From Kangiella shandongensis (GTDB lineage Bacteria > Pseudomonadota > Gammaproteobacteria > Enterobacterales > Kangiellaceae): DNA of 64,000 nucleotides. Made by a program: the position numbers and the translations under genes. The notes under the pieces were generated by a model. That model did no database searches. It was not told the origin of the DNA and saw nothing but the letters and a program-made list of their open reading frames with translations. Below, piece by piece: positions 12,851 through 18,949 of the stretch; the first letter of the stretch is position 1; each line of letters opens with the position of its first letter. The stretch covers positions 62,001 to 126,000 of the forward strand of contig NZ_JACNML010000006.1 in the NCBI RefSeq assembly GCF_020005365.1, written 5' to 3'.

Positions 12851-15469
12851 TTAATTTGCAACGATATTAACCAGTTTACCCGGAACAACGATCACTTTGC
12901 GCACCGTGTTGCCATCAATAAACTTCTTCACATTATCATCAGCCAAAGCCTGTGCTTCAACCGCTTCTTTCGAGGCGCTGGCAGGCACGGTAATTTTTGC
13001 ACGAACCTTACCATTGACCTGAACCACGATCAGCTTCTCATCCTGTACCATGGCGTCTTTATCAGCAACCGGCCAGGTAGCGTCCACGACATCCGTACGC
13101 TCTGTATCGTTAGCCAGCTCACCCAACACAGTCCATAGCTCTGAGCAGATATGCGGCACGATCGGCGCTAGCAGTAAGACTGCAACTTCTAATGCTTCAT
13201 GCAGAACCGCCCGGTCCTGCTCGGACATTTCTTCTGCTTTCGCCGCATGGTTTATCAACTCCATCACCGCTGCGATAGCCGTATTGAAAGTATAACGGCG
13301 TGCGTAATCATCGGTAACTTTAGCAATCGTTTCATGTGTTTTGCGACGCAATGCTTTCTGATCCGCGTTCAAATTACTGCGATCTAACGCCACAACCGCA
13401 CCTTTTTGCTGGTGTGACTGCACCATTTTCCACAGGCGACGTAGGAAACGTAGCGAACCGTCCACAGCAGAATCCTGCCACTCCAAAGCCTGATCCGGTG
13501 GCGAGGCGAACATGGTATACAAGCGCATGGTATCAGCACCGTATTGCTCCACCATCGACTGTGGGTCAATACCATTATTTTTCGACTTGGACATTTTCGT
13601 CATGCCGGCATGAGTCACCTGATTGCCGTCTTTATCAACGGCTTTGACGATATGACCTTTATCATCACGTTCCTGCACTTCGACTTCGAGTGGCGAAACC
13701 CAGTGACGCGCACCTTTCTCATCGGTGTAATAAAACGCATCCGCCAAAACCATGCCTTGGCAGAGTAGCTTTTTCGCTGGCTCGTCAGAATTGACCAGAC
13801 CGATATCGCGCAGCAACTTGTGGAAGAAGCGGAAATACATCAGGTGCATGGTGGCGTGCTCGATGCCGCCGATATACTGATCCACCGGTAGCCAGTAATT
13901 GGCCTGCTCAGGGTTCAGCATTCCGTCTTCATAATCTGGACTGGTGTAACGCGCGTAGTACCAACTCGACTCCATAAAGGTATCGAAGGTATCGGTTTCA
14001 CGGATGCCTTCAACGCCATCGACCACGGCTTTCTTCCACTTGTCATCGGTATTCAACGGGCTGGTCACGCCGTCCATCACCACATCTTCCGGCAAGCGTA
14101 CTGGCAACTGATCTTCAGGAGCTGGTACTACCGAGCCATCCGGCATATTGATCATCGGGATCGGCGCGCCCCAGTAACGCTGACGGGAAACGCCCCAGTC
14201 ACGCAAACGATAATTAACGGTTTTTTCGCCCTTGCCCAAAGACTCTAATTTCTCAGCAATAGCATTAAATGCCTTATCAAAAGATAAGCCATCAAACTCA
14301 TCGGAATTAAACAAAGTACCTTTTTCAACATAGGCCGCTTCGCTGATATCCAGCTCAGAGCCGTCGGCTGGCTGAATCACCGGAGCTTTATCAATGCCGT
14401 ACTTAGTAGCAAATTCCCAGTCACGTTGATCGTGCGCCGGTACCGCCATCACCGCACCGGTGCCGTAATCCATCAAGACAAAGTTAGCGACCCAGATCGG
14501 TACATCTTTACCCGTTAATGGATGCTTGGCGTACAGGCCTGTTGCCATGCCTTTCTTTTCCATGGTTGCCATTTCGGCTTCTGACATTTTGCTGTTTTTG
14601 CATTCATCCACAAACTCAGCAAGCTCAGGGTTGTTTTTAGACGCCATCGCAGCAACCGGGTGACCTGCGGCAACCGCCAGATAGGTGACGCCATACAGCG
14701 TGTCCGGGCGTGTGGTGTAGACACGAAGGTTATCGCTGTGATCATTCTCATCGCCAAAACCAAACTCAACTTCCACCCCTTCCGAGCGACCGATCCAATT
14801 GCGCTGCATGGTCTTGACCATATCCGGCCAACCTTCCAGCTTGTCCAGATCTGCCAGCAATTCATCGGCGTATTCCGTGATTTTAATAAACCACTGTGGA
14901 ATTTCCTTCTGCTCCACCGGCGTGTCACAGCGCCAGCAGGCTCCTTCCACTACCTGCTCATTAGCCAATACCGTCTGATCATTCGGGCACCAGTTAACCG
15001 AGGATGTCTTCTTATAGACCAGACCCTTTTCATACAACTTAGTGAAGAACCACTGTTCCCAACGATAGTACTCAGGCTGACAAGTCGCTAACTCACGATC
15101 CCAGTCATAGGCAAAGCCCAGCATTTTCAGCTGGCCTTTCATGTATTCGATATTTTCGTAGGTCCAGGGTGCGGGCGACGCCTTATTTTTCACCGCCGCA
15201 TTCTCCGCCGGTAATCCGAACGCATCCCAACCGATCGGCTGCAACACATTTTTGCCCTGCATCCGCTGGAAACGCGCGATCACATCGCCAATCGTATAGT
15301 TTCGCACATGACCCATGTGTAGACGGCCACTTGGATAGGGAAACATGCTCAGACAGTAATACTTCTCTTTCGAAGCGTCTTCGACTGCTTTAAAGGTTTT
15401 ATTCTTTTGCCACTTCTCTTGAATTTTTCCTTCAATTTCAGAAGGTTGGTAGTGCTCAGTTAGTTGCAT
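12851..15469 (-). CDS. leuS: Leucyl-tRNA synthetase
   Basis: Class I aminoacyl-tRNA synthetase charging tRNA-Leu. I use the ATG at 15469 (MQLTEHYQP); a TTG two codons upstream is a weaker alternative. The 872-aa protein carries HMGH at residues 51-54, the CP1 editing domain with the threonine-rich TTRPDTLYG and [11 protein letters not shown] motifs, KMSKS at 625-629, and the C-terminal domain ending in [12 protein letters not shown] and [15 protein letters not shown]. It begins the leuS-lptE-holA-nadD run. Confidence 0.98.
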
Positions 15470-15647
15470 TGTCAAAAAATTCTTTAATTATGGAATCGGA
15501 TTAGGAGGAATCAGGCGCAAAGCCCCACAAAGCCTCAACTAGAAACCGTTAATGTTACCTGAGAGGGGGGATAGCAACAAGCTTTCAGCTCTATTAAAGG
15601 CAAAAGTACTAGAGGCAAAATACTGGGAGTTCGCTTTAAAATTTGAC

Positions 15648-16112
15648 CTACCAGGACTTCTGTTCACTTTTTTCTGGGATATCAATACTTGAAACCCGAT
15701 ATTGACCATCCTCCAGCGGCTGAATATCCAGCATCTTTCCCGCAGGCAGGTCATCTTCGTTAAAGTCCAACTTCTCGGATAGCTGCTTATCTAACTCACT
15801 GACAAGCTTTTGATGACCTGATTTGGCTATTGCGTTTCCAATACCAAAACAGGCCACTCCCAAAGTTGCTATTGGGCCAGGATATGCTTGCAGGAATTGC
15901 GTGAAAGTCATTCCTGCGACAGGATCATAATAAACAGTTTCTGGCCCGGAGATCATAAAATATCCACCGACCAAGCCAATAATAATCCCGATAACAATGA
16001 ATAGAATAGAGATATTGTTACGACTACCACTCGGCTCGGGTAATTCAAGATATAGGTCTACGGGTAAATCATCTGGACTATATTTTGTCTGTTGGAAGTT
16101 GTTATTTTCCAT
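15648..16112 (-). CDS. Two-helix membrane protein, paralogue C of a tandem trio
   Basis: A 154-aa protein I do not recognise. It has a short acidic N-terminal segment with LPVD at 16-19, two predicted membrane helices (about 35-56 and 78-96), and a cytoplasmic tail with DKQLS (108-112), GKMLDI (125-130) and a final RVSSIDIP strand-like segment. Residues YPGPIA (77-82) at the start of helix 2 are shared with the next gene upstream. A GCAGG lies about ten bases before the ATG. It is the last of three related genes on this strand and is followed by leuS. Function unknown; a membrane-anchored sensor or scaffold is only a guess. Confidence 0.8.
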   Translation of the reverse strand: MENNNFQQTKYSPDDLPVDLYLELPEPSGSRNNISILFIVIGIIIGLVGGYFMISGPETVYYDPVAGMTFTQFLQAYPGPIATLGVACFGIGNAIAKSGHQKLVSELDKQLSEKLDFNEDDLPAGKMLDIQPLEDGQYRVSSIDIPEKSEQKSW

Positions 16113-16150
16113 GTATTCTACCTGCTATTAAAATCTAATACTCAGCTTCG

Positions 16151-16187
16151 TAGGTTGGTGTTGAGGTTCATTCGTCACCCCAACCTA
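16151..16187. repeat. Intergenic inverted repeat between paralogues B and C
   Basis: Perfect 8-bp arms TAGGTTGG and CCAACCTA flank a 21-base loop. There is no T-tract on either side, so it is not a standard intrinsic terminator. It could be an mRNA stability or processing hairpin between the two genes. Confidence 0.4.
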
Positions 16188-16231
16188 TCTCAACTTAACT
16201 ACTTTAAAGGTTTTATTCTGATGACACTTCC

Positions 16232-16714
16232 CTATTTTTTAACAACAGGTCCCGAGTCCTGCTCGACTTCTTTCGGCTGAGCGACCTCCTGTGACATTTC
16301 CTCTGGCGCATCCACAAGCTCCAAGCGGAATCTCCCAGAATCAAGCGGTGCAATATTTAATAACTTCCCCTCAGGCAGCTCGTCTTCAGAAAAGCTCATC
16401 TGGTCACTGAGCTGCTTATCAATTTTTTGAAGGTGTTTCTGATCCATCTGATTACGTATGGCATTACTGATAGCTACCAGGATAAAGCCCATAGAAGCAA
16501 TTGGTCCCGGATATGCTTTAAAGAAAAATTCAATATCGGGTAAACTGTAACTGACTCGTTCAGGCCCCCAGATAATAAAATAGCCGCCAACCAGAATTAA
16601 GCCGATACCAATAAAACTGAGTAACAAAAAAATGCTGGTACCCAAACCACCTGACTCGGCTACATCTAACTCAATGTCGACGGGTAAATCTTCTAAAGAA
16701 TGTTTTTTCATCAT
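16232..16714 (-). CDS. Two-helix membrane protein, paralogue B of a tandem trio
   Basis: A 160-aa unrecognised membrane protein clearly related to the following gene: LPVD near the N terminus, helix 1 at about 26-49, YPGPIA (68-73) leading into helix 2, then DKQLS (99-103) and GKLLNI (116-121). It has an extra acidic, Gln/Glu/Pro-rich tail. AAGGAG stands three bases before the first ATG and six before the second, so the ATG at 16711 (MKKHSLEDLP) may be the real start. The shared motifs suggest duplication followed by divergence. No enzyme motif is visible. Confidence 0.8.
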   Translation of the reverse strand: MMKKHSLEDLPVDIELDVAESGGLGTSIFLLLSFIGIGLILVGGYFIIWGPERVSYSLPDIEFFFKAYPGPIASMGFILVAISNAIRNQMDQKHLQKIDKQLSDQMSFSEDELPEGKLLNIAPLDSGRFRLELVDAPEEMSQEVAQPKEVEQDSGPVVKK

Positions 16715-16739
16715 ATGCTCCTTGTTATCTTTAAACTTT

Positions 16740-17150
16740 CTATTGGTTCTGAAAGCTCACTCGATAACGCTGTTCTCCAATGCCAATAAGCCTGATCTTC
16801 CGACCATCACTTAATTCGTTATTCTCTATTCCAAGCAATTCATTAACACGCCTTATCGCTTCCTGATCTTTTTTGTGACTACTTAACACAAAAATAAATG
16901 CACCCAGGATCGTTATTGGGCCGGTCAACATCAAAACGTAGCGAGGGTTAGCGACGAGGAAATCCATCATGTTATAACTTCTCAACATAACCGCCCCTCC
17001 CGCAAACATTTGATACAAAGCCCATAAAGAACCAACTAGACCGATGCAACAAACGATGATGCCCAGCACTTGCACAACTTTGCTTTTCGGCGGTAAGTCT
17101 TGAAAACTAATATCGAAAGGAATGTCTTTAACACTATAATTATTGTCCAT
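16740..17150 (-). CDS. Two-helix membrane protein, paralogue A of a tandem trio
   Basis: A 136-aa protein with the same layout as the two genes after it (short N terminus with IPFD, two helices at about 26-49 and 71-90, then a soluble tail ending RYRVSFQNQ), but more diverged: the YPGPIA motif is reduced to GPITILG and the tail reads ELSDGRKIRLI. AGGA lies six bases before the ATG. It is the first of the trio, about 270 bases downstream of lnt, and may start its own transcript. Function unknown. Confidence 0.77.
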   Translation of the reverse strand: MDNNYSVKDIPFDISFQDLPPKSKVVQVLGIIVCCIGLVGSLWALYQMFAGGAVMLRSYNMMDFLVANPRYVLMLTGPITILGAFIFVLSSHKKDQEAIRRVNELLGIENNELSDGRKIRLIGIGEQRYRVSFQNQ

Positions 17151-17296
17151 AATATGTCCTTATGCTTACTTTTACGTCATCCGTTGGGGTCAATATTCGC
17201 GACTCCTGCAATACCTCAGCACTGCCTAAACAGGGTGGGTATAACTCAAATCGCTGGCCGGCATTCTATCAGGCATAGACAACATTTCAAACACCT

Positions 17297-17320
17297 CTTA
17301 TATTTATCTAAAAATATAAG
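17297..17320. repeat. AT-rich inverted repeat upstream of the membrane trio
   Basis: Perfect 9-bp arms CTTATATTT and AAATATAAG with a 6-base centre lie in the gap between lnt and the first paralogue. It may be an operator or a weak hairpin. Nothing else is obvious in the 17151-17419 gap apart from an imperfect stem overlapping the lnt stop codon. Confidence 0.35.
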
Positions 17321-17419
17321 AATGAGCTTCTTAGCCACAGAGTGTTGAGACCCAGTCTCCTGCTCTTAGAGCATATAGGACAGGTTAGCTATGCGTACCC
17401 ATCGAAAATAAGCACTATG

Positions 17420-18949
17420 CTACTTTCGAGGTTTCTTAAGCACAAAGGCCGACACTAACAAACTCGCTGCCAGCACCAGCAACCCCCAATAGCCATATTT
17501 TAGAAACCAGGTCGGTTTATTATCCAGAATAAAGGCACCAGCCAGAACGTCACGTTCGAAGCGAGGAACTTGATCCAGCACGCGACCTTGCGAATCAATC
17601 ACGGCGGTTAAGCCGTTGTTGGTACCACGAATGACGGGCAAACCGGTTTCGATGGCACGCATCTGAGCTATCTGAAAATGTTGCAGCGGCCCCCAGCTAT
17701 CGCCAAACCAGGTGTCATTACTGATGGTTAAAATGGCGGTGAATTGATCTTGTGACTTTTGGCCGAGACTTTGAATTAAACCAGAGAAAGCTATTTCATA
17801 ACAAATAGCCGGTACCAGAGCTGCTTTTTCCGTGCGTAATGGCTCCTGCTCCGGACTACCTGGCGTGAAGCTGGACATCGGCAGATCAAAAAAGTCGATG
17901 GCACCGCGGAGCAGTTCGGTAAACGGAATATACTCGCCGAACGGTACCAGCTGCTGTTTATGGTAGGCCTGATTCTGCTCGCCGAGGAGACGTATACCGG
18001 AATAATAAATCGATTTATTATCTGGCTCATACATGGGAATACCGGTAATAAACTGGCTGTCGCTGTTCAGAGCCTTCTGCTCGATCTGGTACATCAAACC
18101 TTGTACCCGGTTTTCAAAAGATGGAATTCCACCCTCCGGCCACACCACGAGGTCAGCTCCCCAGTAAGGCTCGGTCTGTTCAAACAGATCGTTCATGATC
18201 GAATTAAAATACTCTGGGTTCCACTTAATATGTTGATCCACGTTCGGCTGAATCAAGGCCAGAGTTAACGTCTGCTCTTTCTCAGGCTCCTTTGAAAATA
18301 GATACAGGGTCGAAGCAAAAGGAATCGCTAACACCATCAAGATTGGCAAAATAAAGCGGCGTTGCTGCGCATAACCTTTGCTCGCAACCACCTCTGATAA
18401 AAAACAGCTCAGCACGACCACAAATAAGGTCACGCCATGCACTCCCAGAAACGAGGCGAGTCCTTGCATCAATGCTTCGGTCTGACTGTAACCCGCATAT
18501 AACCACGGAAAACTGACAAAGCCTGAGCCTCGGGCAATATCGAGACCGACCCACAGTAGACTGAACATAATGATACGTGAGATTAGTGAGTACTGACTGA
18601 AGAATTTCTGCATGGCCCAGCCGAGCAAAGCAAAGAACAAGGCGAGAATGGCAGCGAATAAAATCGTCAGGATAACAGCCAATGGCGGCGAAGCATTTCC
18701 GAAAGTATTAATCGAGACATAAACCCACGAAACGCCTGCACAAAAAAGCCCAAAACCATAGCCCCAGCCGAGCCGAAAAGCTTTCTTCGGGGATTTATCG
18801 GTAATTAACCACCAAAAGGTTGCGATGGATAACAGCGCTAATGGCCACCATTTCAATGGGGCGAAGGCCAGGGGATAAATGGCACCAGCTATTAAGGCAA
18901 CAAAAAATGCCAGCCAGCCTGTCGGACTGGCAAATTTATCTGTCATCAT
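17420..18949 (-). CDS. lnt: Apolipoprotein N-acyltransferase
   Basis: Inner-membrane enzyme adding the third acyl chain to lipoproteins before Lol export. The 509-aa protein has an N-terminal block of about six helices and a periplasmic nitrilase-like domain with the catalytic triad E272 (WPEGGIP), K331 (HKQQLVPFGEY) and C383 (AICYEIAF), plus a final helix. Two adjacent ATG codons follow GAGAG, and the second (18946) is better spaced. It ends the miaB-phoH-ybeY-corC-lnt series, though a terminator-like hairpin precedes it. Confidence 0.97.
   Translation of the reverse strand: MMTDKFASPTGWLAFFVALIAGAIYPLAFAPLKWWPLALLSIATFWWLITDKSPKKAFRLGWGYGFGLFCAGVSWVYVSINTFGNASPPLAVILTILFAAILALFFALLGWAMQKFFSQYSLISRIIMFSLLWVGLDIARGSGFVSFPWLYAGYSQTEALMQGLASFLGVHGVTLFVVVLSCFLSEVVASKGYAQQRRFILPILMVLAIPFASTLYLFSKEPEKEQTLTLALIQPNVDQHIKWNPEYFNSIMNDLFEQTEPYWGADLVVWPEGGIPSFENRVQGLMYQIEQKALNSDSQFITGIPMYEPDNKSIYYSGIRLLGEQNQAYHKQQLVPFGEYIPFTELLRGAIDFFDLPMSSFTPGSPEQEPLRTEKAALVPAICYEIAFSGLIQSLGQKSQDQFTAILTISNDTWFGDSWGPLQHFQIAQMRAIETGLPVIRGTNNGLTAVIDSQGRVLDQVPRFERDVLAGAFILDNKPTWFLKYGYWGLLVLAASLLVSAFVLKKPRK

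Follow-up and report, generated by a model that had tools for sequence, protein, structure and literature searches.

Three consecutive genes between lnt and leuS of Kangiella shandongensis, here designated A, B and C, are paralogues of an orphan, presumably accessory membrane protein which is ordinary in kind, triplicated in this one species at a variable cargo site and represented elsewhere by single-copy relatives. The genes are part of a stretch of 64,000 nucleotides that was analysed in full (the window). According to the explanation preferred here, A, B and C would belong to an undescribed inner-membrane family of approximately 150 amino acids with an accessory or protective role and with both termini in the cytoplasm, whose three paralogues are carried as cargo between lnt and leuS. 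As a whole, this explanation is given a probability of about 0.4. Its statements on anatomy and origin are very probable, its statement on function is tentative and by itself rather unlikely to be right.

All three open reading frames are intact and lie on the minus strand between lnt (17420..18949, minus strand), the conserved upstream border gene, and leuS (12851..15475, minus strand), the conserved downstream border gene. A (16740..17150) encodes a two-helix membrane protein of 136 amino acids and is the most diverged copy, B (16232..16714) one of 160 amino acids and C (15648..16112) one of 154 amino acids. These assignments are based on BLASTP and profile searches, complemented by alignment for B and C and by AlphaFold2 models for A and C. 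A previous description made from the sequence alone (the sequence-only reading), by which three consecutive same-strand genes for proteins of 136 to 160 residues were inserted into a housekeeping gene order, thus proved correct. The coordinates of A and B leave a gap of 25 bp (16715..16739, minus strand), which suggests that the two genes are co-transcribed; B and C are 119 bp apart (16113-16231). The top promoter-like match upstream of A (17263..17290, minus strand) reads TTGAAA-16-TAGAAT with a TG ahead of the second hexamer, which is weak evidence, as eight promoter-like sites were found in the region compared to 4.3 expected.

What goes beyond the sequence-only reading is the observation that, throughout the genus, the interval between lnt and leuS holds variable cargo. 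Eighteen congeneric regions were compared, 17 of which hold both lnt and leuS; in the remaining one the contig ends between the two genes. Measured between the ends of tblastn matches, the gap amounts to 124-4856 bp in the 17 congeners. The leuS-lptE gap, which served as a control, is 26-80 bp long in 13 congeners, compared to 124-3886 bp for lnt-leuS in the same 13; four congeners were dropped from this control since the stretch had no lptE match. In the window, the cargo interval (15585..17419, minus strand) resembles none of the 17 congener gaps at the DNA level. One border of the cargo is marked by the leuS-proximal gap end (15475..15584, minus strand; 110 bp), which is 82-89% conserved in six of the 17. 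Open reading frames of 55 amino acids or more are present in the gaps of 11 congeners and missing in the other six. Described by eye, this cargo comprises lipoprotein-like genes, a large secreted-type protein and a pair of peptidase-like genes accompanied by another gene. It is mostly different from congener to congener, some of it being common to two or more species, and none of it is related to A, B or C in the 17 congeners. Ten of the cargo frames were scanned in Pfam, one of which gave matches. The G+C content of the three genes is 0.417 and lower than that of leuS (0.502), of lnt (0.483), of the gene on the far side of lnt (presumably corC; 0.447) and of the window (0.466). Flanking repeats marking an insertion mechanism were not found; the direct repeats detected lie inside the paralogues. 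These data mark lnt-leuS as a genus-wide parking site for accessory genes. As to the cargo of other species, the gap of two congeners (L034, L036) contains a secreted-type protein of 616-669 amino acids with an HEWMH motif, for whose L034 copy no Pfam match was obtained. In the gap of two congeners (L039, L043), two tandem peptidase-like genes, which we take to be S9-peptidase-like, occur together with a third gene.

The relationship of the three proteins is supported by pairwise and profile comparisons. B and C are 45% identical over 143 residues (BLASTP E value 3e-41). The similarities of A to C (9e-6) and to B (3e-4) are much weaker, yet significant, as anticipated by the sequence-only reading, which regarded A as more diverged. 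For the profile comparison, a leave-out profile was used that contained only 13 relatives from outside the window and none of the window copies. Segment-wise shuffles, in which hydrophobic segments are kept separate from the remaining ones, served as controls (for A, 3,000 were made and 2,968 scored). A reached 25.8 bits with this profile compared to 13.4 bits for its best shuffle, B 92.9 compared to 11.3 bits and C 127.0 compared to 27.2 bits. The likeness of the three proteins, A included, is well beyond chance. Duplication with divergence, which had been proposed before, is upheld by significant similarity in all three pairs and in the leave-out profile, as well as by the shuffle test for A. 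In the tree, B and C are grouped (90/84) and A forms a very long branch; A may have derived from the same duplication as B and C. Between B and C, dN is 0.48 and dS 1.73 (dN/dS approximately 0.28), from which it can be inferred that the protein sequence has been conserved under constraint. In both pairs involving A, dS is saturated. Among the relatives, dN/dS is 0.11-0.19.

From the N- to the C-terminus, an alignment of 16 rows revealed a DLPxxI element, helix 1, a short loop, a longer helix 2, the element (D/E)(I/L)PxGxxLSI and a final strand. The LPxxI-type and (D/E)(I/L)PxG-type motifs around the two helices occur nearly as written in B and C and are relaxed in A (IPFDI; ELSDGR). The sequence-only reading had already pointed to LPVD or IPFD near the N-terminus, the former being found in B and C and the latter in A, and to YPGPIA and DKQLS, both present in B and C. 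A tail element G(K/R)-x-(L/I)-x-I, which it ascribed to all three proteins, exists in B (GKLLNI) and C (GKMLDI), but A (GRKIRL) lacks the final isoleucine. The loop carries a motif of approximately GPxxIYYxxxxGMTFxQxLQAYPGPIA, which was found, with variation, in C, in nine relatives and in shortened form in B. It is absent from A and from four relatives of one genus, so that the motif marks a subtype. A literature text search for the six-letter loop motif returned no mention.

Hydropathy analysis detected two segments. Within the 25 residues following helix 2, the members of the trio possess four lysine and arginine residues, compared to zero to two in the loop. Due to this excess, a topology with both termini inside is likely. 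Unlike the trio, two of the relatives (L089, L090) have no lysine or arginine within 25 residues after helix 2. The AlphaFold2 model of A (pLDDT 61.9) contains a strand at residues 12-15, helices at 24-51 and 69-106 and strands at 118-125 and 128-134, that of C (pLDDT 67.8) a strand at 18-21, helices at 29-55 and 78-114 and strands at 126-132 and 137-144. The order strand, helix, helix, strand, strand is the same in both models, which share one three-row alignment and are hence not independent; their confidence is low to middling.

In agreement with the earlier statement that no family was recognisable, none of the three proteins reached a curated cut-off in Pfam or NCBIfam, and PADLOC gave no match even though E values up to 1 were allowed. 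In Pfam, the cut-off was not attained by any of the other family members either. Thus, the profile searches in Pfam and NCBIfam did not place A, B and C in unrelated known families. The likeness to DUF6981 (PF22403) is weak and local, covering residues 95-133 of C (E value 0.019); C scored 15.3 bits compared to a cut-off of 26, and only one of 14 family members matched with an E value of 0.1 or better. The best E values were 0.02 in PHROGs and 0.24 in a sequence search of solved structures. With the models, which are of modest confidence, Foldseek returned only generic helical hairpins and no match at an E value of 0.001 or better. The best VIA-align Z score of these models was 8.1, again to helical hairpins, a level that is common according to the note of the tool. 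The trio accordingly adds a definable family with clear motifs, which is nameless in the libraries searched.

The first relative was detected by tblastn of plasmid records in Photobacterium sp. GJ3 (E value 1e-5 with B and 3e-10 with C). Using the profile together with the GJ3 relative, four of 394 genomes of an order sample, the window's own included, matched at an E value of 0.01 or better. With G476 discounted and the window's own genome set aside, the first two relatives of this sample had E values of 1.9e-32 and 2.4e-5. Later relatives, none of which was part of the profile, were recovered with E values of 1e-19 to 1e-46. Within the family of Photobacterium, 12 of 329 genomes matched, nine of them strongly (1e-19 or better), and relatives were found in four of 152 and one of 75 genomes of two other families. 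Outside the trio, 13 intact single copies and one broken copy (L096, split over two frames) were identified, which brings the family to 17 copies, 16 intact and one broken. In a class sample, a 14-row profile matched only the window's own genome (1/369). A convincing copy was not detected in any of the 19 other genomes of the genus, one of which is only 55% complete. Conservation of copy number and order, which the sequence-only reading had suggested to look for in related genomes, was accordingly not found in these congeners. Among the relatives found, three copies are confined to the window's species (one of 20 genomes of the genus). The assumption of a lineage-specific family was thus not borne out, since single-copy relatives exist in three other taxonomic families; within the searched genomes, only the triplication is species-specific.

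Several further matches were rejected. A match in Parachlamydiales (L007) overlaps, in antisense, a frame of 543 amino acids and was regarded as a chance match. Weak matches inside longer membrane-type frames of congeners and of other genomes (L003-L006, L045-L048, L050, L051, L053, L054) and one with an E value of 8.5e-4 inside a frame of 413 amino acids (L059) look helix-driven and were not counted. Neither were three matches in the family of Photobacterium (G955, G700, G724; E values 0.003-0.007), and a Streptomyces match (H4; E value 0.6) was dropped. A tblastn search of phages gave no match, and 120 pattern matches (A1) in viral contigs included no relative.

The uncharacterised GJ3 protein (178 amino acids; pGJ3-1, 1275577-1276110), as well as the relatives from 13 further genomes, have the N-terminal motif, the two helices and the tail motif in common with the trio. 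Those nine relatives that possess the loop share 27-34% identity with C and 22-29% with B. Unlike the trio, these genes are single copies located away from lnt-leuS; three of them adjoin a VasX_N module and four, belonging to one genus, lack the loop motif. The broken relative in L096 (9610-10067) adjoins genes which, as we assume, resemble TerD-type stress genes.

As far as can be judged from the sequences, the family protein is small, located in the inner membrane and probably non-enzymatic; it would expose a conserved loop to the outside, carry a tail domain in the cytoplasm and bind some partner at the membrane. Two membrane helices would be joined by a short periplasmic loop, and the cytoplasmic N-terminal LPxxI strand would pack with the C-terminal hairpin following (D/E)(I/L)PxG. 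Oligomerisation could be mediated by the long second helix, and the protein is perhaps oligomeric. As a non-enzymatic accessory or protective protein of the membrane, it might use its conserved loop to bind either a partner in the envelope or a membrane-acting toxin arriving from outside, the copies having possibly diverged to meet different partners, A by loss of the loop motif. The boldest interpretation compatible with the data, protection from membrane-acting effectors, is an improbable one, because the link is based on a single ancestral site and the genes are not arranged as expected of a cognate immunity gene. Taken over its several forms, an accessory function in some envelope process is about as likely.

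In one protective reading, which is unlikely, the trio would be an array of diverged immunity proteins without toxins, each copy being tuned to another membrane-acting T6SS effector (VasX type) of competitors. Tandem membrane proteins that are diverged, species-restricted, of atypical G+C content and located at a cargo site would suit it. In PMC3857813, VasX is described to compromise the inner membrane from the periplasmic side, and TsiV2, its immunity protein in Vibrio cholerae, to be encoded directly downstream of vasX; immunity gene arrays of this species are the subject of PMC5361080. The likeness to TsiV2-type proteins lies in a possible protection of the inner membrane and in the VasX_N vicinity of relatives at one ancestral site, and is thus drawn from role and gene position; unlike TsiV2, neither the trio genes nor their relatives are placed directly downstream of vasX. 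Gene comparison around the 14 outside loci, covering approximately 6-9 kb to a side, showed that in three Photobacterium-type genomes (L055, L089, L090) a tandem set of three membrane paralogues and a protein of 1699-2015 amino acids are encoded convergently to the relative. LysM and VasX_N domains were found in the large protein of L055 and L090, that of L089 was taken as the same by similarity. Between species, the relative (57-75% identity) has diverged to about the same extent as the effector (65-72%), whereas the closest flanking genes are better conserved (80-98%). However, some farther flanking genes are equally diverged (56-78%), the flanks point to one common ancestral site, to which insertions were later added on the outer side of the relative in two of the three genomes, and no VasX-type effector was detected within the same distance in the other 11 outside loci or beside the trio. 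Moreover, the relative does not follow the effector downstream on its strand; it faces the module convergently, with three other candidate immunity genes in between, an arrangement that argues against a protective role. In another genus, the relatives give the impression of ordinary resident genes: in four genomes the family gene is steady, single-copy and at a shared location, unlike a conflict gene, which also counts against protection. That the trio represents a new inner-membrane immunity family, expanding as an orphan array at a genus-wide cargo site and recognising membrane-inserting T6SS effectors of competitors by its periplasmic loop, is quite unlikely; if the protective reading were true, sequence libraries would be missing an immunity family. 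The three tandem paralogues of L055 (8393-11206), and likewise those of L089 and L090, have 267-299 amino acids, are located downstream of the VasX-type protein and are candidate VasX immunity genes; those of L055 matched no Pfam family over the cut-off.

It is also conceivable, though improbable, that the three proteins assemble into one hetero-oligomeric membrane complex, as suggested by the sequence-only reading. The same orientation, the short A/B gap and the identical element order predicted for A and C are consistent with this, but the gap between B and C is loose and all 13 intact outside relatives are single-copy, which argues against an obligatory hetero-trimer. Near-neutral cargo, i.e. 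copies persisting briefly at an insertion-tolerant site without a special role, could account for the six of 17 congener gaps without cargo frames, for the differing content of the others and for the broken relative elsewhere. On the other hand, the intact frames and the dN/dS ratios of B/C and of the relatives indicate constraint, which makes this explanation distinctly improbable. Finally, the family might act together with a DUF898 protein and a membrane peptidase of the M48 type in modulating membrane-protein quality control. In two genera (L092, L094), genes for a DUF898 protein and an M48 peptidase indeed precede the relative on its strand, but these are no more than two of the 14 outside loci and represent one shared site, the gaps ahead of the gene are approximately 140 and 180 bp, and the cargo interval of the window contains neither M48 nor DUF898 genes, so that such a partnership is very unlikely. 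In the remaining nine outside loci, four of which represent one shared site, no partner recurs across sites.

Within the genus, a T6SS was reported for K. profundi, according to PMC6000758. The window's genome possesses T6SS genes and three VasX_N genes. VasX_N content is variable in the genus (nine of 20 genomes), and a tandem membrane array adjoins a VasX_N gene in the window's own genome, both of which would fit the idea of an orphan immunity array; by BLASTP and the family profile, however, the genes beside VasX_N in this genome and in one congener are unrelated to the trio. The T6SS cluster in the window's genome (L099 with L098 and L100; G000:C22:268518-276864) contains a VasX_N effector and, following it, five tandem diverged membrane paralogues of 261-457 amino acids, which matched no Pfam family and constitute a candidate immunity array. 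In one congener (L119; G009:C2, 7422-9784), a VasX_N gene adjoins a comparable array, which is interrupted by a transposase-like pair that we take to be an IS3-type transposase.
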